Shown here: positions 3,819 through 19,158 of the stretch, one piece after another
Layout of the letters: every line of letters starts with the position of its first letter
Numbering within the stretch: the stretch's first letter is position 1
Virus record (IMG/VR): IMGVR_UViG_3300032285_001298
Coordinates: 1 to 26,366 of that record
Origin: a virus
Strand: one strand, 5' to 3'
DNA length: 26,366 nt
The notes under the pieces: generated by a model
What the model was told of the DNA's origin: nothing
The model's input: only the letters and a program-made list of their open reading frames with translations
Database searches by the model: none
Program-made: the position numbers and the translations under genes

Positions 3819-4027
3819 ACCAACTACAAGCCTTAACGATGCTGACGCTCATGCATACAGCACCCATGCAACCACAGACTTATTATGTGGCAAATCTATC
3901 CGAGAACGATGGAGCCAATTGTGGATCATACTACATGGTTTTCCCACAGAACCAAGTAATGCCACAGCAATATGCACCTATAACGCCATGCGTTATGGAT
4001 GAGCATGAAGGTTATTCGGAGGAATAA
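3815..4027 (+). CDS. Small hypothetical protein, 70 aa
   Basis: Start at ATG 3815 chosen because it overlaps the previous stop (ATGA); the longer frame from 3758 runs inside the previous gene. The product is Met/Gln-rich (MNQLQALTMLTLMHTAPMQP) with an acidic end (MDEHEGYSEE). The codons near its stop carry the GGAGG that serves the following methyltransferase, and its TAA overlaps that gene's ATG. Family not recognised. Confidence 0.65.
   Translation: MNQLQALTMLTLMHTAPMQPQTYYVANLSENDGANCGSYYMVFPQNQVMPQQYAPITPCVMDEHEGYSEE
4018..4022 (+). promoter_or_regulatory. Shared Shine-Dalgarno GGAGG for two overlapping starts
   Basis: GGAGG lies 4 nt before ATG 4027 (methyltransferase) and 8 nt before ATG 4031 (overlapping frame). 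The sequence reads ATGAATG, so two starts four bases apart share one site. The 8-nt spacing is closer to the usual optimum than the 4-nt spacing. Confidence 0.7.
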
Positions 4028-4905
4028 TGAATGAGCTACACTTATTTGCTGGAGTCGGGGGAGGAATACTCGGCGGGATGCTTCTCGGACATACCACAGT
4101 ATGTGCTGTTGAGCTTGAACCTTATTGCCGTCGAGTCTTGCTCCAGCGGCAACGAGAAGGCTGGCTTCCAAGATTTCCAATCTGGGACGATGTTACCACT
4201 TTTGATGGAAAGCCCTGGAGGGGAAAAGTTGACATTGTTGCAGGAGGATTCCCTTGCCAAGACATCTCTTCAGCAGGAAAGGGAGAAGGAATTACAGGCG
4301 AAAGAAGCGGTCTTTGGAAAGAAATGTCGAGAATCATTTGTGAGGTTCGACCCAGATACGCTTTCGTGGAAAACTCACCAATGCTCACTTCTAGAGGATT
4401 GGGAATCGTTCTCGGAGACTTGGCCTCAATGGGGTATAATGCAAGATGGGGAGTGTTGGGAGCCGACAATCTTTTTGCCCCACATTCTAGAAAGCGAATT
4501 TGGATTGTTAGTGAATTGCGGGGGGGGGGGGGCCACAATATGGCCAACTCCAACAGCCTGTATGAGCAAGGGAACCAATGTGAATGCCCTAACAAGAAAG
4601 AATGGAAGGAGCAGGGAGAGGGATCGTCTAGACCATGCTGTCCTTCATATGATGGTGTTTCCTACACCCCAAGCAAGCGATCACAAAGATCGAGGTCATG
4701 TTGGTTCTCTTTCGATCCAGCGGAGATTGGAGAAGGGAAAGCAAATCAACCTCTCAATGACAGTATCAAAGAAACATGGGGCATTGAATCCAGAGTGGGT
4801 AGAGTGGCTCATGGCATTCCCAATAGGGTGGACAGACTCAAAGCCCTTGGAAACGCCCAGGTTCCAATCGTGGCGGCAACAGCATTCAAAATCTTAAAAC
4901 CATGA
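4027..4905 (+). CDS. C5 cytosine DNA methyltransferase (Dcm-type)
   Basis: A 292-residue enzyme expected to transfer a methyl group from S-adenosylmethionine to C5 of cytosine. Visible motifs: motif I FAGVGGG (residues 7-13); motif IV GGFPCQ (73-78) with catalytic Cys77; motif VI ENS (115-117); motif VIII-like RKRIWIV (155-161); and motif X, RLKALGNAQVP, about 25 residues from the end. The target-recognition region is short and low-complexity. It begins with four Gly encoded by a 13-G tract and continues MANSNS. The target site cannot be read from sequence. A likely role is protection from host restriction, or epigenetic control. Its ATG overlaps the upstream TAA, and its stop overlaps the next ATG. 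The whole gene is overlapped by another long frame. Confidence 0.95.
   Translation: MNELHLFAGVGGGILGGMLLGHTTVCAVELEPYCRRVLLQRQREGWLPRFPIWDDVTTFDGKPWRGKVDIVAGGFPCQDISSAGKGEGITGERSGLWKEMSRIICEVRPRYAFVENSPMLTSRGLGIVLGDLASMGYNARWGVLGADNLFAPHSRKRIWIVSELRGGGGHNMANSNSLYEQGNQCECPNKKEWKEQGEGSSRPCCPSYDGVSYTPSKRSQRSRSCWFSFDPAEIGEGKANQPLNDSIKETWGIESRVGRVAHGIPNRVDRLKALGNAQVPIVAATAFKILKP
4031..4897 (+). CDS. Overlapping +1-frame ORF with WPTP / WVEWLM-x-FPIGWTD motifs
   Basis: A 288-codon frame runs uninterrupted inside the methyltransferase gene, starting 4 nt after its ATG and ending 8 nt before its stop. It is not random text. Residues ~100-145 read SFVRFDPDTLSWKT...SLLEDW...FSETWPQWGIMQDGECW; then WPTPTA (171-176), FPTPQASDHKDRG (210-222) and ALNPEWVEWLMAFPIGWTD (251-269). 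From memory, this motif series is widespread in phage and bacterial proteins, both stand-alone and as the C-terminal half of C5 methyltransferases, where GFPxGW resembles motif IX. The first ~95 residues are less recognisable. The ORF may be a true overprinted gene, or the alternative C-terminal half reached by slippage at the G tract. Function unknown. Confidence 0.65.
   Translation: MSYTYLLESGEEYSAGCFSDIPQYVLLSLNLIAVESCSSGNEKAGFQDFQSGTMLPLLMESPGGEKLTLLQEDSLAKTSLQQEREKELQAKEAVFGKKCRESFVRFDPDTLSWKTHQCSLLEDWESFSETWPQWGIMQDGECWEPTIFLPHILESEFGLLVNCGGGGATIWPTPTACMSKGTNVNALTRKNGRSRERDRLDHAVLHMMVFPTPQASDHKDRGHVGSLSIQRRLEKGKQINLSMTVSKKHGALNPEWVEWLMAFPIGWTDSKPLETPRFQSWRQQHSKS
4520..4532 (+). repeat. 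Homopolymeric G13 tract inside methyltransferase gene
   Basis: Thirteen consecutive G lie just after the motif VIII region of the methyltransferase. In the 4027 frame they code for Gly, and also Gly in the 4031 frame. Loss of one G would join the catalytic half to the WPTP...GWTD frame, ending at 4897. Gain of one G would join the N-terminus of the 4031 frame to the motif X frame. Such tracts are classical phase-variation sites but are also prone to sequencing error. Confidence 0.85.
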
Positions 4906-5624
4906 TCATCACGGCACAGCCGTTTTTAAACGAGGTAGAACGCCTTTTAATCAAGTTTGAAACCCTCAAGGGTGCTGTAGATTTGCACATTGTAGCTGAA
5001 TCGCCAGTAACTTTTACTGGAGTAAACAAGGCTATGCATTTCAAGCTGAACCAGCATCTCTTCAAGGATTATCCTGTTCACTATATTGATCTATCCGATC
5101 TACCAGAGAGCAGGGCAATGAAAGCCGATCCTTGGGCAATGGAAGAGGCGCAGAGACAGGCAACGCTGAAGGAGATCAAGAAGATTGATCCAGAGATTGT
5201 GATCTTTGGTGATGCTGACGAGACACCCAAGCCAGAAGTCATAGAGAAGTTCCGTAGTCTGAATTGCCATACCGCAAATCTGGAGATGGATATGCTCCTG
5301 TTCTACTTCAACAGGATTGATTCTACCCCTTGGAGATACCAGCGTATTTGCAAGTTCCAAGGCAGGGTATGTGACCGAGGTAACTGGAACCATCCCATGA
5401 TTACCGATGCAGGATGGCACTTCCAGTACATGGGGGGAAAGCAGACGCTACTGGATAAGGTGAACTCCTCTAGTCATGCTATGGAAGTAGGAGGAAGAAA
5501 CTTCTACCAAGCAGTTAGCCGAGGCGAGAAGCCTGGTCTTGAAGCGTGTTCCGAGTATCCAGAGGAGAAGCTACCAGCGTATGTCCGAGAGAATCGGGAA
5601 CGCTTTAGCGAATGGTTCGCTTAA
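4902..5624 (+). CDS. GT17-like glycosyltransferase
   Basis: A 240-residue protein resembling glycosyltransferase family 17 (beta-1,4-mannosyl-glycoprotein N-acetylglucosaminyltransferase-like) proteins found in phages and bacteria. Visible features: FLNEVERLLIKFETLKGAVD near the N-terminus, VAESPVTFTG, HYIDLSDLP, W-x-x-EEAQRQ and then IFGDADETPKPEV (residues ~101-113), where DADE is the presumed metal/nucleotide-sugar site. C-terminal aromatic motifs include WHFQYMGGKQ. Cytoplasmic; no signal peptide. The acceptor is unknown: modified DNA, virion protein or host glycan are all possible. Its ATG overlaps the methyltransferase stop, implying co-translation, and its 3' end overlaps the convergent gene by 20 nt. 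Confidence 0.85.
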   Translation: MIITAQPFLNEVERLLIKFETLKGAVDLHIVAESPVTFTGVNKAMHFKLNQHLFKDYPVHYIDLSDLPESRAMKADPWAMEEAQRQATLKEIKKIDPEIVIFGDADETPKPEVIEKFRSLNCHTANLEMDMLLFYFNRIDSTPWRYQRICKFQGRVCDRGNWNHPMITDAGWHFQYMGGKQTLLDKVNSSSHAMEVGGRNFYQAVSRGEKPGLEACSEYPEEKLPAYVRENRERFSEWFA

Positions 5625-7707: not shown

Positions 7708-10700
7708 TTATTGCAACCCTCTTCCTGTTCTTTGCCTTGATTGGAAAGACTTCTCGTATTCTTCAATGTCGGCAGGGGTTTCAAGCCTTGTTCCAAGGAA
7801 TGCGGCTGAACCAGCTTTTGCGGCGGCAGGAATAAATTCCTTTTGCGTTGCGGCTTCTGAAATAGGAATAGGAGCAAATTGCTCTTGCACAATTTCACCC
7901 CATGTCAGCCTGCGGCGACCACGATCTGGTTGCTGGCTAGACCAAGGAACAACATTTCCAAGGTAATCCTTTCCAGTTGCGCCAACAATAATGTCACGGG
8001 TAATAGGGCTAAATCCGCTTCTAAAGTATGTGTAAAGAGCATCCTTCATGGCGGCCTCCCTGCCACCACGGGCTTTTTGGATTCGTGTAAGATCGCCAAA
8101 TACAGCGTTGTATTCTTGAGCAACCAACCTAGCAATGCGAGTAAATGCCCCAATGGTAGAGAGATTGTATCCAAATCCCTTGTATGCCAGCCAATCATTC
8201 TTCTTTGGGTTAAAGAAATTGATGTTCTGATTGCTTCCAGTAACAGAAAGTAGTGCTTGGTTTGCAAGCAATGTACCAGTTAGGAATCCCAAGAACTTTG
8301 CTTTATTCTTGGCTTCGTAGAATGCAGACATTCTTTCTTCTGGTGTAACTTTTGTTAAGGGATTTGCCATCTTTGCAAATGTTCCAAGCATCTTTGCAGG
8401 ATCTTGAATCAACCATTTGAATCGGCTTGCAATAAGTTTAGGAGCAAAGAAAAGAACCTTTGTAATTGGGCTTTGCAGTATTCCCTTTGTTCGATCTCCA
8501 CCCTTAGTAAATCCAGTTGCATTGTTAATGCTTTCAGCAAGCATTTCTGCCATCTCTGGTGTCCTTTGAGTGATGCTTAATTTTTCCCATGCTTGGTCAA
8601 ACATATCTTGACGCAAATGGAAAAGAGCATCGAATCCACGACCTCCGCTAATTGTATCCAATGCCCTAGCCAAAGCAGTATCGCTTCTTGCTGGAGTTGC
8701 ACCCTCTCTTCTGGTTTCCCTTGGGTCATTTTCCAATCCAGCCCTACGAGCAACAGTCCAGTTGGGTCTATAGATCAGATCCTTGTTATCAACAATGTTT
8801 TGAATGCGACCATTCTTGCCACGGAAAGAATAAGAAAGACCTTTTAACCAAGCCTTAAATGCCGCCCTTGGATGAGTATAAAGAGTTGTTGGTGCGTGAG
8901 TTCCAATGAATGCAGTCCCGTGACCAAAGATTGCCAATTTGAATGTCTTTTCAGCAAGTGATCCAAATACACGACCAACCCAACTTGCTTTCTGATTTTC
9001 CAACCAGCGTTTTGCTTCATCCAAAGCCATTTGCCTATTGCGTTGCTTCAGATACATATCATCAGAAACCTTCTTTGCTCCCTTTGGAGAAGCCAATCCT
9101 CTCCTTACTTGATCTGGAAGAAGCCCAAGGTCACTAGCTAGATCGTTTACCATCTTGTCCCAATCGCTTTCTCCTTTATCAAGGTAGAATTTCTTTGCGG
9201 TTTCCCACAAGGTTTTGACTTGTTCTGGGTTTAGCTTTTCACCAATCTTGTCTTTAGCAAAAAGATCACGCTGTTTAGCTTTTAGACGAGCATCAGAAAG
9301 TTGTTGCTTCTTTTCAGCAAGATCCTTCTCAAGTCCTTGGATTTCTTCATTGGTAACTTTTTCAACATCTTTAGGAGTAGTTACACGACCTTCCTCAATG
9401 TCTTTAATCTTTTTCTCGTATTGAGAAATACGCTTTCGGAGATTGTCTGCGGCTTTCTCGGCAAGAGTTAATGGCTTTTCGGTAAGTTTCTTTTTAAGTT
9501 CAGAGATTTGTTTTCTCTGTTGCTTTGTTTGATCCTCAAGTGCCTTAATCCTATCATTTGTTGCTTTTTGAGAAGTCTTTGACTCTGGTAGTTTTCCTTC
9601 TTTTAAGGATGCTATTTTTTCTTCATTGTCAGAAACTTGTTTTTCCAAGCTCTTGATTCGGCGATATTCTGGAGATGATTTAGACCTAATGGTTTTTACT
9701 GCTTTTTCGCCACCGTTTTCTCCATTGATTAATTCATGTGCCTTTGCCCATGCATCTTTCAAAGAAGGTTTAATTTTAGGGCCAAACTTTTCAATAAGCA
9801 TTGCGGAGGATTTTGTAAAATCCAATGCAAGTTCACCAATATGCGCCCTCATTATCCTAGCAAGAGTTAAAATAATTGTAGGATCTGGCGATGACCCCAT
9901 TTGATTAAGCTGTTTCCTTAATTGCTTTTCAGCTTCAGCGGCATCAGCTTTCCACTTATCAACAATCTTTCTAGCTTGTTCAAATACTTCTTTCCCAAAC
10001 TTTGGTTGTGATTCAAGTTGGTTATTAAGATCACGAATCTTTGCTTCGTAGTAACTCTTCAAAGACTCTGCATCTTGACCAGTTTCTTTGGCTTGCCTTA
10101 CTTCCTCAAGCGTTTGCTTTGTTTGTTCAAGTTCACTATTCAGCCTATCAATCTCATCCTTTGCCTTCTTTCCTTGTGCATCAGATAGATCAGCAATCTG
10201 TTGTTGTCCTTCCTCGACTGATTCTGGTGTCTTTACATCAACATCAGAAAGCGATTCATCCAGAGTATCACGAACTTTTTGAGTAGCCTCGCCAGCTTCT
10301 TTTATGCTTGTGTCAACCTTATCAGCAACTTTCCTAATCTGTTCATGCTGTGAAAGCGTAGGCTCTTGTCCTGTAATCTTTGTATATTCACGGGCAATAT
10401 CAGCGGCATCAGAAAGATCAGTCTCGCCTTGGAATGTCCTTAAAATATCAGAAGCAATAGTTCCAGCTTCTCGTATGCCTTCGTAGTAATCTTGATATTG
10501 CTTGGCAAGATCCTTGTACTCTTTGGATTGTGGGCCAAACTTTTTAAGAGCTTCACTCACTTGTTTTGCCAATGCATTTGCATATGCTTTGGCAGTAGTA
10601 AGAGCATTAAAGTCACCTTGCTTGGCTTTCTCTAAAGCATTGAAAGGATCAGCACCATTTCGTAAATTGGCATTTCCTTGTTCAATTATTCCAGCCCTAG

Positions 10701-13700
10701 AAGTGCCTTCTCCAGCAGGAACGGGGGATGTAAGGATTCCCCTACGAACTTGATCTTCTTGATCCTTTGTGCGAATGGAAATCTTTTCTGGAGTTTCCTC
10801 GGTAGTAACGGGAGGCTTTACTTCAGCAACGGGTGGCTTTGGCTTTCCTGTGGCAGATGCGTAAAGATCAGATGCCTCACGGGAGGTGATGCCAGGGAAC
10901 TTCCTAGACAGGATGTTTTGCATCTCTTGCTCTGTGATAGGTTCCATCTTACCTTTGGCAACCGCATCGGCAACTTTCTTGGCAAAAGCCAATCTTTCAT
11001 CCTGTGCCTTTGGCTTGAATCGCTCATCAGCACCAATGTCAATAGATCCACGCTCGGCGGCTCTTTCTAGGATTCTCCCTCCACCAGTAGAGATGGCATG
11101 GTAGATCTGACGCAGATACTTACGGACACCATCTCCAAGGCGTGAAGCCATATCCCTAGACCAATCGGCAAAGGATTTTCCAGCTTTGGAAAGCGATTTT
11201 GCTACATCGACAACTCCATCATAGATGATCTTTGGAAAATCGGTAAATGCCGCTTCGCCGCCCTTTCTTCTTGAATCAAACCAATCTTGAAGCTCTTGGT
11301 TCCTTTCTTGTTCAAACAATTCGGGATTAGTTGTGCGTAATTTTTCGGTTTCCTTTGCTCTGTTGAGAACCTGTCTTCCTAGTTTTTCAAGTCGCGCCTC
11401 TTCAGCTTGCCTCTTTTCAGCGGATTTTGATGATTGCTCAATACGATTCCATAAATCGGATGCGGTTGAACCCTCTGGCATCAATCCTTGATCGACCAAT
11501 GCCTCTACTGCTGTATCAATAGGTTCTCCTCTAGTGCTATAAATCTGTGAAGCGTGACCTTTATTGATGGTTGGAGCATCATCGTAAACACCTCCTCCTT
11601 CTTTTATTTCACCCTTTTTAACACGCCTCAAGTATTCGGACTTGGACATGATTGGGTTTTCTTGGAGGTATGCCATTACAGGGTCAATTCCAAGGTATCC
11701 ACCTTGAAGCTCTCTAGCACCCCTCTTAACGCTAGGAATCGGTTCTGGAGGGTTGTCGTGATGGTTTGCTTCTCTTTCTATTGATGAAAGCAATGCCTCA
11801 ACATCTGGATCTTCGCCAACTTCCATTTGCTCCCTAAATTTATCAACGGCGGCTTTTAGGTACTTGTTTTTTTCTTTCTTTGCCACTTCAGCGGCGGCAT
11901 CAGCAAAATCTCCATGCGTCCTAATTTCGTGATAGAATCGGTTTAGGAGATCGGTGTACGGATTGGTTGGCTTTGGAGCCTCACCCAAAGGAAGCTGTTG
12001 CTCTTCCTCTGTGCCTACGGTTGGATTCTCTGGCTCTGGAGCCATTGTCTCTCCAGCCAGATTGAATGGTAGCTCTTTCTCTTGGAAAAGGTTTCCTTCT
12101 CCATGAGTTTCAATTGTTGGAGTAGTTGGCTTTTGCTCAATAGGTGATTCTATTTTTTCTCTTGGTATATTTGCCTCTTTTCCATCTTCAAAACGAACTG
12201 GAACACGACCGAATGAAGTAGTTCCTACAACTTTTCCATTTTTTCCTTCTACGGAAACAGGCTTTCCCATGTAGTTAGATGATTCACGCTTTTCTTTTGC
12301 AATCTTTTCTTTAGCGGTAAGATTTCCAGTAAGATCGCGTTTTCTTGCAGATGCTTGCATTCCCAATGCTTTAAGCTGTTTTGGAATCTGATCTATAGAT
12401 GGGCCGTTGCGATTTTCTATTGCCGCTTTGTAATCATCCTCTAGTTGCTTTCTTTTCTTTTTTACAAAAGCATCTACCTCTTCTACTGTTTGAGCTTGGT
12501 AAACGCTGTAATACTTGGATACATCTACTTCTTCTTGGGGCTTTTCTTCACCTTGCGGGGCAGGGACTTCTGCTTCGTTTTCTGCGCCCACTCCTTCGCC
12601 CACGGCTGGTGCGTTGCGAACGCCCACTTCTCTTGCGCCTTGCTTCTGAACGGACTCATTTTGTTGTGTAGGTTGTGCTGGTTCTTCAGCAGATGGTTCT
12701 CCATACAATACAAGTTCCCTTTGTTTCAAAAGTTCAACTTGCTGTAAACGATTTTGATCAATTCTATCTTGAATTTGCCTCCTTCCAACGCTCCCTTGTG
12801 GATATTTTGGAAGCTCTTCAATAACAAGCCTATTGTTCTCGTTTGTAAGATCTTGAATCTGTTGGTTTACATCGGACGCTACAGGAGCTTCAGCGGGTTT
12901 GTTTAATGCATCAATCTGTTGCTGAATTGCAGTATGCTCTGGCGATCCTTCGTCGTGGAACGCCTGTTCAATGGTTAGACTACGCAAATCATTCGCAGGA
13001 GTTTCAGCAACAAGAGCAGGAGCTTCTTCTGTTGGCTTTGGAGCTTCTGGGATAGGAGCTTGGGAATCAGCGGATGCGAGAATCTGTGCCTCACGCTCGT
13101 TGACTACGGGATTAGCAGAGGGAGCCACCTCTGGAGCAGGGCCTCCAAGTTGAGCGTCAGCTTTTTTCTTTGCTTCTGCGCTTGCTTCCATCCCTGTGGA
13201 CAATCCATGCAATGCACCAAACAGAATATCTTGAGTAGTTCCTTCGGCGGTAAGCATCAAGGGCTGACCTTCCAATCCTCGCAATCCAGCGGATGTTGCC
13301 ACATTAACTCCAGCGGCGGCGGCTCCTCCAGCTAATCCTTTAACAAGAGGAGTTGCTTCTTTGAGTAATGCCCCTGTAGCTTCTGATGTCAACTTGCCGC
13401 CAACAAGGTATGCTCCAAGTTGGGGAACGGTTGCTACAGCGGCTTGGCTTCCAGCCTCATGCCCTGCATCATCAATTGACTTTTGATCAGTAATGCCTTG
13501 CTTTTTAAGTTCATTAACCTTTGAATCGTATGCTTCTGCATATGCTTGATTTCCAGCTTGAACAGCAGTCAATGGAATACCTAATCCACCAGTCAACATT
13601 GCTGGAGCCATTCCAAAAATGCTACCCAATCCACGACCGATTCCAGCGGCAGTAGATGCATCTTGCGGATTTGCGTTGTAAATAGTCTCTGCTTCCTTTG

Positions 13701-14805
13701 ATGCTTGAGACATCAAATTAGCTTGCTGTGCGGCTTCTTGCCTTCTTGTTGCAAGGTCGGCTTGCTCTTGAGGTGTAAATTCTTGCCCACCAAGAGTAGC
13801 TTGCTTCTGAACTTGAGTATTCTGAATCTGCTGTTTTAGCTGATTAATGCGGTTTTGATCATCGGCTGTAGCAAATCCTTTTTTGGCAACAACAGATTGA
13901 AGGCTATTTAATGCGGCTTGTTGATCTGCAATAGATTTATCAAAAGTTGCAGTTGCTTCTTCTGGTGTTTGTTCAGCCCTAGATAACCCTCTTAATTCAC
14001 CGCCTATAGTGTTGATTACGCTTTTGGCGGCGGCGGCGGCAAACTGATTTGGCAATGCTTGATACCAAGGTTGTGAAGGAACATAATCTGGCCCGACATC
14101 ACCAAAAGTTTGTGCTTTTCCAGTATTTGTAGGAGCAGTCCCAAAGCTGGCAGGAGTTTCTTGTGAAGGAATCAGATCAGCAAATGGATTATCGGGCAAT
14201 CCCTTGGATGCTTGTGATTGGAATGCGGCTCCAGTAGATTGGGATGATTGATCGTTCTTTGGGATCAAATCAGCAAAGGGATTCTCCATCTGTTGCTGTT
14301 GCGTCTGTGATCCTTGCTGAATCCTTCCAAGGCTAGTATAAGCACCTTCTCCCTCTGGAACCTTTCCAAAGTTCTTTAGCAATTCACCAACCCCACCAGC
14401 AGTCTTTGGAATCTGATTAGCAGGGACTCTTCCCACAGGAACTAGATTCCTTTGACCAGAAAAACCCGTGTATTGTGAGGGAGGAGTGTAAATATCAATG
14501 ACATTGGGATTGGCATTCCCATGCTTGTCTCCAGCGACATATGCCTCACCAGTATCGGCATCCTTGAAGATTGTTCCTATAGGGTAAACATCTGGATTTA
14601 CGGCTACAACACCTGGAGCCAACTCGTTATCTGAAGATCCGTGACCTTGCGCTGTTCCAGAATCATACGACTCATCAGCACCTCCCACAGAAGCAGGAAT
14701 GCTGTAGGTAGTAACAGGCGTAGGACTAGCAACAGGGAGATTGATTACACCGCCCTGTTCTGACCCTCTTTGGGGAATTAGGTCGGCAAACGGATTGTCT
14801 CCCAT
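7708..14805 (-). CDS. Giant virion/ejection protein with N-terminal 3D-like lytic domain
   Basis: A 2365-residue protein, 27% of the window. Residues ~45-110 resemble the 3D (double-psi barrel) domain of MltA-type wall hydrolases: SYDSGTAQGHGSS, GVVAVNPDVYPIGT, AYVAGDKHG and NVIDIY. The first of the three usual Asp is Asn here (VNP). NPFADLIP recurs at residues 4, 175 and 206. Residues ~385-510 are Gly/Ala-rich and hydrophobic (GLGSIFGMAPAMLTGG; LAGGAAAAGVNVATSAG), possibly membrane-active. Residues ~550-950 are low-complexity Pro/Glu/Gln linkers with an SH3-like patch near 845-885. Residues ~1480-1850 are long coiled coils. The last ~400 residues form a compact, better-ordered domain. By analogy with podovirus internal proteins it would be ejected to open the wall and guide DNA (inference). 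The ATG at 14805 is 3 nt after the previous stop. Confidence 0.85.
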   Translation of the reverse strand: MGDNPFADLIPQRGSEQGGVINLPVASPTPVTTYSIPASVGGADESYDSGTAQGHGSSDNELAPGVVAVNPDVYPIGTIFKDADTGEAYVAGDKHGNANPNVIDIYTPPSQYTGFSGQRNLVPVGRVPANQIPKTAGGVGELLKNFGKVPEGEGAYTSLGRIQQGSQTQQQQMENPFADLIPKNDQSSQSTGAAFQSQASKGLPDNPFADLIPSQETPASFGTAPTNTGKAQTFGDVGPDYVPSQPWYQALPNQFAAAAAKSVINTIGGELRGLSRAEQTPEEATATFDKSIADQQAALNSLQSVVAKKGFATADDQNRINQLKQQIQNTQVQKQATLGGQEFTPQEQADLATRRQEAAQQANLMSQASKEAETIYNANPQDASTAAGIGRGLGSIFGMAPAMLTGGLGIPLTAVQAGNQAYAEAYDSKVNELKKQGITDQKSIDDAGHEAGSQAAVATVPQLGAYLVGGKLTSEATGALLKEATPLVKGLAGGAAAAGVNVATSAGLRGLEGQPLMLTAEGTTQDILFGALHGLSTGMEASAEAKKKADAQLGGPAPEVAPSANPVVNEREAQILASADSQAPIPEAPKPTEEAPALVAETPANDLRSLTIEQAFHDEGSPEHTAIQQQIDALNKPAEAPVASDVNQQIQDLTNENNRLVIEELPKYPQGSVGRRQIQDRIDQNRLQQVELLKQRELVLYGEPSAEEPAQPTQQNESVQKQGAREVGVRNAPAVGEGVGAENEAEVPAPQGEEKPQEEVDVSKYYSVYQAQTVEEVDAFVKKKRKQLEDDYKAAIENRNGPSIDQIPKQLKALGMQASARKRDLTGNLTAKEKIAKEKRESSNYMGKPVSVEGKNGKVVGTTSFGRVPVRFEDGKEANIPREKIESPIEQKPTTPTIETHGEGNLFQEKELPFNLAGETMAPEPENPTVGTEEEQQLPLGEAPKPTNPYTDLLNRFYHEIRTHGDFADAAAEVAKKEKNKYLKAAVDKFREQMEVGEDPDVEALLSSIEREANHHDNPPEPIPSVKRGARELQGGYLGIDPVMAYLQENPIMSKSEYLRRVKKGEIKEGGGVYDDAPTINKGHASQIYSTRGEPIDTAVEALVDQGLMPEGSTASDLWNRIEQSSKSAEKRQAEEARLEKLGRQVLNRAKETEKLRTTNPELFEQERNQELQDWFDSRRKGGEAAFTDFPKIIYDGVVDVAKSLSKAGKSFADWSRDMASRLGDGVRKYLRQIYHAISTGGGRILERAAERGSIDIGADERFKPKAQDERLAFAKKVADAVAKGKMEPITEQEMQNILSRKFPGITSREASDLYASATGKPKPPVAEVKPPVTTEETPEKISIRTKDQEDQVRRGILTSPVPAGEGTSRAGIIEQGNANLRNGADPFNALEKAKQGDFNALTTAKAYANALAKQVSEALKKFGPQSKEYKDLAKQYQDYYEGIREAGTIASDILRTFQGETDLSDAADIAREYTKITGQEPTLSQHEQIRKVADKVDTSIKEAGEATQKVRDTLDESLSDVDVKTPESVEEGQQQIADLSDAQGKKAKDEIDRLNSELEQTKQTLEEVRQAKETGQDAESLKSYYEAKIRDLNNQLESQPKFGKEVFEQARKIVDKWKADAAEAEKQLRKQLNQMGSSPDPTIILTLARIMRAHIGELALDFTKSSAMLIEKFGPKIKPSLKDAWAKAHELINGENGGEKAVKTIRSKSSPEYRRIKSLEKQVSDNEEKIASLKEGKLPESKTSQKATNDRIKALEDQTKQQRKQISELKKKLTEKPLTLAEKAADNLRKRISQYEKKIKDIEEGRVTTPKDVEKVTNEEIQGLEKDLAEKKQQLSDARLKAKQRDLFAKDKIGEKLNPEQVKTLWETAKKFYLDKGESDWDKMVNDLASDLGLLPDQVRRGLASPKGAKKVSDDMYLKQRNRQMALDEAKRWLENQKASWVGRVFGSLAEKTFKLAIFGHGTAFIGTHAPTTLYTHPRAAFKAWLKGLSYSFRGKNGRIQNIVDNKDLIYRPNWTVARRAGLENDPRETRREGATPARSDTALARALDTISGGRGFDALFHLRQDMFDQAWEKLSITQRTPEMAEMLAESINNATGFTKGGDRTKGILQSPITKVLFFAPKLIASRFKWLIQDPAKMLGTFAKMANPLTKVTPEERMSAFYEAKNKAKFLGFLTGTLLANQALLSVTGSNQNINFFNPKKNDWLAYKGFGYNLSTIGAFTRIARLVAQEYNAVFGDLTRIQKARGGREAAMKDALYTYFRSGFSPITRDIIVGATGKDYLGNVVPWSSQQPDRGRRRLTWGEIVQEQFAPIPISEAATQKEFIPAAAKAGSAAFLGTRLETPADIEEYEKSFQSRQRTGRGLQ
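14167..14796 (-). repeat. Three NPFADLIP repeats in giant protein
   Basis: The octapeptide NPFADLIP is encoded at 14773-14796, 14260-14283 and 14167-14190, each preceded by Asp or Glu and separated by disordered Gln/Ser-rich linkers. The conserved short motif in variable surroundings suggests a linear docking motif, for example to another virion protein, or a processing signal. Confidence 0.85.
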
Positions 14806-18597: not shown

Positions 18598-19158
18598 TTA
18601 TGCACAATAGAATTTTTGAAGAGTATAGGACAATTGTATAGCTTTTCTCATATTTTCAATGTGTTTGCTAGACTTTTCCCTTCCTTTCCAGAATTGCGAC
18701 ATTTTCTTTCTGCTTTCTAAAGAATGGTTTTTACCAAAAAAAGAGTTTTTATTGCCGCTTTGATTTAGCGACATTTTCTCTTTTGTTTTAGTTGAATGTA
18801 TCTTTCCTTTTCCAGCTTCAGCTATTTTTAGTTTTGTTTCCTCAGAAACAATTTGACCATCTTTTCCCCCACCTAAAAGGTTGTAACCAAATTTGCGATT
18901 TATAGTTTTGTATTTTTCAATCCACTCTATTTCTCGCCAGTTCAGTAATTCATGAGGGCAAAACTCTAAAACAGAAAACTCAAAGGAATCTTCTCCATCT
19001 TGATTCCAAGCATTCTGAAAATGTCCGTTTCCGTTTGATCTGTTATTTAGAGTCCAAATATGATGCGTCTTGCGATCAAACATAACGACACTCTGCCCGA
19101 TATATCTCTTTCCGTTTTTCTTATTACGGAAACAATATATACCTGAGCTAGAGGCCAT
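18598..19158 (-). CDS. GIY-YIG homing endonuclease with NUMOD3
   Basis: A 186-residue protein. The GIY-YIG nuclease domain is clear: SGIYCFRNKKNGKRYIGQS (residues ~5-23) with GIY and YIG, then DRKTHH, EFSVLEFC, WREIEWIEKY (with the likely catalytic Glu) and FGYNLLGGG. NUMOD3-like DNA-binding segments follow: SEETKLKIAEAGKGK, and SLESRKKMSQFWKGR. The role is DNA cleavage that spreads the element into phage genomes lacking it. The gene is free-standing. Its ATG overlaps the upstream TAA as TAATG, and it ends one base before the downstream ATG, so it is inserted between two virion genes without breaking either. AT content is higher than in its neighbours, consistent with transfer. Confidence 0.92.
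   Translation of the reverse strand: MASSSGIYCFRNKKNGKRYIGQSVVMFDRKTHHIWTLNNRSNGNGHFQNAWNQDGEDSFEFSVLEFCPHELLNWREIEWIEKYKTINRKFGYNLLGGGKDGQIVSEETKLKIAEAGKGKIHSTKTKEKMSLNQSGNKNSFFGKNHSLESRKKMSQFWKGREKSSKHIENMRKAIQLSYTLQKFYCA

Follow-up and report, generated by a model that had tools for sequence, protein, structure and literature searches.

Comparative evidence for a probable split C5 DNA methyltransferase of phages, with a putative recognition subunit overprinted on the catalytic subunit

Natural split C5 DNA methyltransferases (MTases) exist, for instance M.EcoHK31I, recognizing YGGCCR, and M.AquI, recognizing CYCGRG (PMC3404938). All the specific contacts of M.HhaI and M.HaeIII come from their small domain, which is built of the variable region and motif IX (PMC3404938). 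In M.EcoHK31I, motifs I-VIII and X are located on the large polypeptide and motif IX on the small one, and the predicted target-recognition domain (TRD) belongs to the large subunit, not to the small one (PMC3404938). In M.AquI, one polypeptide carries motifs I-VIII, and the other carries, in part, the recognition region, together with motifs IX and X (PMC3404938).

Here we analyze a C5 MTase gene of a virus that overlaps with a second open reading frame of the same strand (Table 1). The source is the virus record IMGVR_UViG_3300032285_001298, positions 1 to 26,366; this whole stretch of 26,366 nucleotides is called the window, and its numbering is used throughout. The locus resembles M.EcoHK31I in that the motifs appear to be divided between a large and a small polypeptide, a likeness of arrangement. 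Lee, Kam and Shaw reportedly observed in 1995 that the small ORF of M.EcoHK31I is nested in the large ORF in another frame; a nested second gene is also found here. Unlike M.EcoHK31I, the locus is an orphan phage gene, with the inner start 4 nt past the MTase start. Further, selection on its TRD region is confined to the inner frame, whereas the predicted TRD of M.EcoHK31I belongs to the large subunit, which counts against reading the inner frame as the source of the TRD. The proposed placement of motifs I-VIII on one polypeptide, and of the recognition region and motif IX on another, is shared with M.AquI; motif X, located on the small subunit of M.AquI, is here in frame 0, and, unlike in M.AquI, the second gene lies almost wholly inside the first.

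Table 1. Features of the overlapping genes and their surroundings, in window coordinates.
Feature	Coordinates	Strand	Basis
C5 DNA MTase, frame 0, proposed large (catalytic) subunit, 292 aa	4027..4905	+	PF00145, phrog_363, HhaI/HaeIII catalytic fold
Inner gene, frame +1, proposed recognition subunit, 288 aa	4031..4897	+	phrog_1008; stop depletion, start-codon conservation, pN/pS
Shine-Dalgarno-like GGAGG	4018..4022	+	read from the sequence; spacers of 4 and 8 nt to the two starts
Inner start ATG, built from MTase codons 2-3 (AAT GAG)	4031..4033	+	codon usage, start conservation
MTase residues 1-156, motifs I-VIII, constrained in frame 0	4027..4494	+	pN/pS; pLDDT about 85-98
Double-constrained stretch, MTase residues 97-144; inner SWKTHQCSL..FSETWPQWG	4316..4459	+	pN/pS, simulation
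TRD region, MTase residues 157-264, constrained in +1 only (WPTPTA, FPTPQASDHKDRG); in frame 0 essentially without constraint and largely disordered	4495..4818	+	pN/pS; pLDDT 30-60 over most of 170-265
Inner ALNPEWVEWLMAFPIGWT, motif IX-like	4781..4834	+	aligns with canonical RLTPRECARLMGFPDTF; inner pN/pS 0.15, the strongest
Motif X (RVDRLKALGNAQVP), MTase residues 265-292, both frames constrained	4819..4902	+	pN/pS; pLDDT 83-97 over 271-292
G13 tract near the point where selection changes frame	4520..4532	+	sequence; contigs of nearest relatives end there

Both frames are open, as the earlier note on this DNA had stated, and the C5 motifs and the +1 motifs that it quoted are all present and in order. 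The frame-0 protein matches PF00145 (1.5e-29) over residues 3-165 only, and phrog_363 (5.8e-65) over its whole length. The +1 protein matches phrog_1008 (1.4e-29, residues 59-271), phrog_26627 and other PHROG families, and phrog_1008 is also matched by all 78 inner homologues in the first alignment, A1, which was too diverse for the pattern search. No Pfam or NCBIfam model matched the +1 protein, and a PDB sequence search with it gave no meaningful match. Though phrog_1008 is named 'DNA methyltransferase', it is the family of the +1 frame, so that the label fits the overlapping gene and not an MTase domain. In GenBank, the +1 frame is called as an internal gene in Paenibacillus phage Shelly (SHELLY_56, 'g55 internal gene'), is called instead of the MTase in Vibrio phage 1.236.O and Pseudomonas phage phPA-G, and is often left wholly without annotation. 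The +1 proteins are already known from scattered GenBank entries and a PHROG family, and are merely unexplained; a search of a limited library of papers found no account of this phage family.

Among other genes of the window, a glycosyltransferase family 17 gene (4902-5624, + strand) starts in overlap with the MTase stop codon, a GIY-YIG-type homing endonuclease (18598-19158, - strand; phrog_314, 9e-36) is located amid tail genes, and a 2365-aa ORF (7708-14805, - strand) has just a weak PHROG match (8.8e-06). If the G13 tract lost a single base, frame 0 would be joined to the inner frame. The nearest relative, IMGVR_UViG_3300025598_000065, has two contig ends (L096 and L008) that stop in the G tract, and another contig (L009) begins there, a pattern suggestive of an assembly break or of heterogeneous length. 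The possibility of phase variation or frameshifting at these G residues was considered and found unsupported, as the tracts are differently placed in relatives and encode glycine in both frames.

Frame 0 has the hallmarks of a C5 MTase, with motifs I, IV (PCQ), VI (EN) and VIII and the catalytic fold; its catalytic domain aligns with those of M.HhaI and M.HaeIII over about 168 residues at about 2 Angstrom rmsd. In the AlphaFold model, the catalytic domain and motif X (GNxxVP; conserved as RLKALGNAQVP and ordered in the model) are confidently predicted, and residues from about 170 to 265 mostly fall below pLDDT 60. M.HhaI and M.HaeIII have the TRD and motif IX in one chain with the catalytic domain, whereas the frame-0 protein does not: residues 166-264 are essentially unconstrained and mostly disordered, and a scan of frame 0 with the canonical motif IX profile gave a background score only. 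Frame 0 is thus without a recognizable TRD or motif IX.

The +1 frame is kept open far beyond chance. Homologues were gathered twice, once with each frame as the query, and interior stops were counted in a non-redundant set of 59 loci picked on the MTase frame alone (median amino-acid identity 61%), with the expectation obtained by redrawing synonymous codons from the usage of flanking genes. Frame +1 of these homologues contains 4 interior stops versus about 342 expected, and frame +2 contains 695 versus 661. The deficit is present in each sub-region (for instance, none observed versus 42 expected in residues 2-30), and the window's own +1 frame has no interior stop where 7.5 are expected. 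As a negative control, 16 canonical C5 MTases of the same genomes have 212 stops versus 216 expected, that is, no deficit. Two loci, L095 and L136, have one mid-gene nonsense codon each in the inner frame. In three others (L118, L145 and L159) the MTase frame stops early and the inner frame extends 307-661 nt past the MTase stop; their catalytic subunit may be cut off ahead of motif X.

The start of the inner frame is conserved as well. Among 253 loci with an MTase beginning xEL, 245 have a start triplet 4 nt past the MTase start, ATG in 232 cases and GTG in 13. Codon 2 of the MTase is AAT in 224 of the 225 cases of Asn, while elsewhere in the same genes AAT accounts for about 37% and AAC is commoner; codon 3 is GAG in 222 of 225. 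The inner ATG or GTG survives changes of MTase residue 2 to His, Tyr, Asp or Arg. In several divergent prophage homologues from Enterobacteriaceae the inner start is internal instead, an ATG after the strong Shine-Dalgarno sequence AAAGGAG. Both the kept start codon and the internal signals of the Enterobacteriaceae group point to independent initiation of the inner frame. In the window, one GGAGG could serve as the ribosome-binding site for both start codons.

Selection changes frame along the gene. From 80 independent pairs with 73-96% nucleotide identity, the frame-0 pN/pS ratio by region is 0.16-0.39 to residue 165, 1.16 in residues 166-255 and 0.52 for the 3' end. For the inner frame, the regions before residue 166 give, in order, 1.13, 1.94, 0.88 and 0.73, and the two later ones 0.41 and 0.51; frame +2 stays at 1.4-2.6 all along. 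In windows of 12 codons, the change of frame falls near residue 157, where motif VIII ends, and frame-0 constraint returns at about residue 265, at motif X. By window, the frame-0 ratio is 0.09-0.49 in residues 1-156 and about 0.93-1.5 in residues 157-264, where the inner ratio is 0.15-0.50 from residue 169 on; in residues 265-292 the two are 0.35-0.57 and 0.48-0.88, respectively. Within residues 97-144, the inner ratio of 0.60-0.91 compares with 1.4-2.9 in frame +2. In simulation, the inner frame alone dominates residues 157-264, and both frames are required at 97-144 and at the end.

The same shift is seen in simple counts. Of 71 pairs, 63 have a lower pN in the inner frame than in the MTase frame across the TRD region, and substitution rates in residues 166-255 are.350,.178 and.189 at MTase codon positions 1, 2 and 3, which is the pattern of the inner reading frame, its wobble position being the fastest. 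The window and its nearest relative (about 90% identical) differ by 10 MTase and 37 inner changes in residues 1-96, and by 20 MTase and 7 inner changes in residues 166-264. The earlier note had considered selection on both frames of the overlap; this holds at about residues 97-144 and from 265 to the end, where the double constraint is true, and fails elsewhere, where one frame is selected at a time. Its suggestion of a second protein is supported: stop depletion, start conservation and pN/pS among the homologues together make a strong case for a selected protein in the +1 frame. Frequent +1 stops in homologues, or no excess constraint at synonymous sites, had been named as findings that would speak against it, and neither was found.

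The inner C-terminus, LNPxWVEWLMGWPxGW, resembles the canonical motif IX, LTPRECARLMGFPDxF. In hhalign, the motif IX segment is the sole match of the inner protein (P 0.31, not significant alone). A profile of the inner segment has motif IX as its top window in 11 of 15 canonical MTases, and, in 84 of 93 inner proteins, the segment selected by the canonical motif IX profile is the C-terminus, the homologues in both directions being not independent and the motif short. The division known from M.EcoHK31I, with motif IX on the small polypeptide and motifs I-VIII and X on the large one, is thereby matched with moderate strength. The model of the inner protein is of low confidence (pLDDT 58), and a Foldseek search with it gave no meaningful fold match.

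We consider it likely, from these alignments and models, that the locus encodes a split C5 MTase, in which a second protein, overprinted on the catalytic subunit, provides the TRD and motif IX. Frame 0 would yield the catalytic subunit, in which a linker lacking conservation connects motifs I-VIII with motif X. Translation of the +1 frame would begin at a separate ATG, 4 nt further on, probably with a shared ribosome-binding site, and would yield a second polypeptide supplying the target-recognition region and motif IX that the catalytic subunit lacks. Together, the two polypeptides would form an active MTase with sequence specificity, whose most likely role is to shield phage DNA from host restriction. 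We infer the translation of both proteins, their mutual binding, the recognition of DNA by the inner protein and the anti-restriction role. Since the small domain of canonical enzymes provides the specific contacts and natural split enzymes exist, the simplest reading of the +1 protein is as the recognition part. Of the roles offered in the earlier note (anti-restriction factor, partner or alternative C-terminus), that of a partner fits best, as the TRD region and motif IX, missing from the MTase, lie in the inner frame.

The overlap arrangement recurs in hundreds of phage and prophage loci of many bacterial phyla. We collected 327 loci as the best matches of each search, including 160 found with inner-frame alignments as queries and a further 80 with the inner protein alone. 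The MTase and the inner frame occur together in 325 of them, the other two being contig-end fragments, and no standalone inner homologue was found among these best matches. In genome contigs, 361 relatives were counted; the best 80 of the 361 come from Proteobacteria, Spirochaetes, Planctomycetes, Verrucomicrobia, Nitrospirae, Firmicutes and others. A near relative is present in 4 of 5,426 complete Escherichia coli genomes. No restriction enzyme was noted next to the divergent Enterobacteriaceae homologues, whose flanks are, by eye, prophage-like genes. On balance we favor, with somewhat less assurance than the split of this single locus, the existence across phages of a class of C5 MTases whose sequence specificity resides in a trans-acting protein fully overprinted on the catalytic subunit.

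Variant arrangements were also observed. The E. coli PT62 prophage (L330) has two adjacent C5 MTase genes, and the +1 frame of the upstream one matches the inner family (2.5e-10). In Mycobacterium phage Llama (L007), the MTase is split across two annotated genes, gp74 and gp75, by a frame change, and the inner frame of the first part continues into the MTase frame of the second; two-piece matches of this type are seen in several related phages.

The inner protein could also be real and separate and yet act outside the enzyme, as an anti-restriction factor or a regulator inhibiting or tuning the MTase. Its poorly predicted fold and the shortness of the motif IX likeness leave some room for such a role, but we think it unlikely: in the 327 loci, the best matches per search, the inner frame never occurs without the MTase, and it carries exactly the region absent from frame 0, in the same DNA order. 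Less probable still, and in our opinion improbable, is programmed ribosomal frameshifting that would fuse frame-0 motifs I-VIII to the +1 TRD and motif IX, with the separate inner protein not being the functional product. Selection does change frame at about residue 157, close to the G13 tract of the window; however, no shared slippery site was seen at the junction, with G tracts located elsewhere or absent in relatives, and the position of motif X in frame 0 after the TRD region would demand a second shift back. Frameshifting also leaves aside the strong conservation of the inner start codon and of the open inner N-terminus, as well as the lineages with an internal Shine-Dalgarno sequence plus ATG. 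Constraint on DNA or RNA (recombination sites, structure or codon use) with no second protein would fit some excess conservation of frame +2 in shuffle tests and the low synonymous change over the first 72 codons, but is largely refuted already by the frame-specific pN/pS of 0.15-0.50 and the sub-region stop counts, with substitutions falling mainly at the inner wobble position, stops depleted in +1 only and the start codon conserved, and we regard it as very improbable.

To our knowledge, long same-strand overlaps have seldom been proven in phages or bacteria. At this locus, the two halves of one enzyme appear to be divided between the frames, and the comparative support for the overlap is strong. 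A split enzyme would account for the misnamed PHROG family and for the conflicting GenBank calls of either frame. If the wider class exists, it would turn M.EcoHK31I from a seeming curiosity into an example of a general class, with half of an enzyme in each frame and selection changing frame in the middle of the gene. Single synonymous changes would abolish one product and leave the other intact. Changes in the inner TRD would just rewrite the disordered linker of the catalytic subunit, and the overlap may offer phages a route to alter methylation specificity with the conserved parts of the catalytic subunit untouched.
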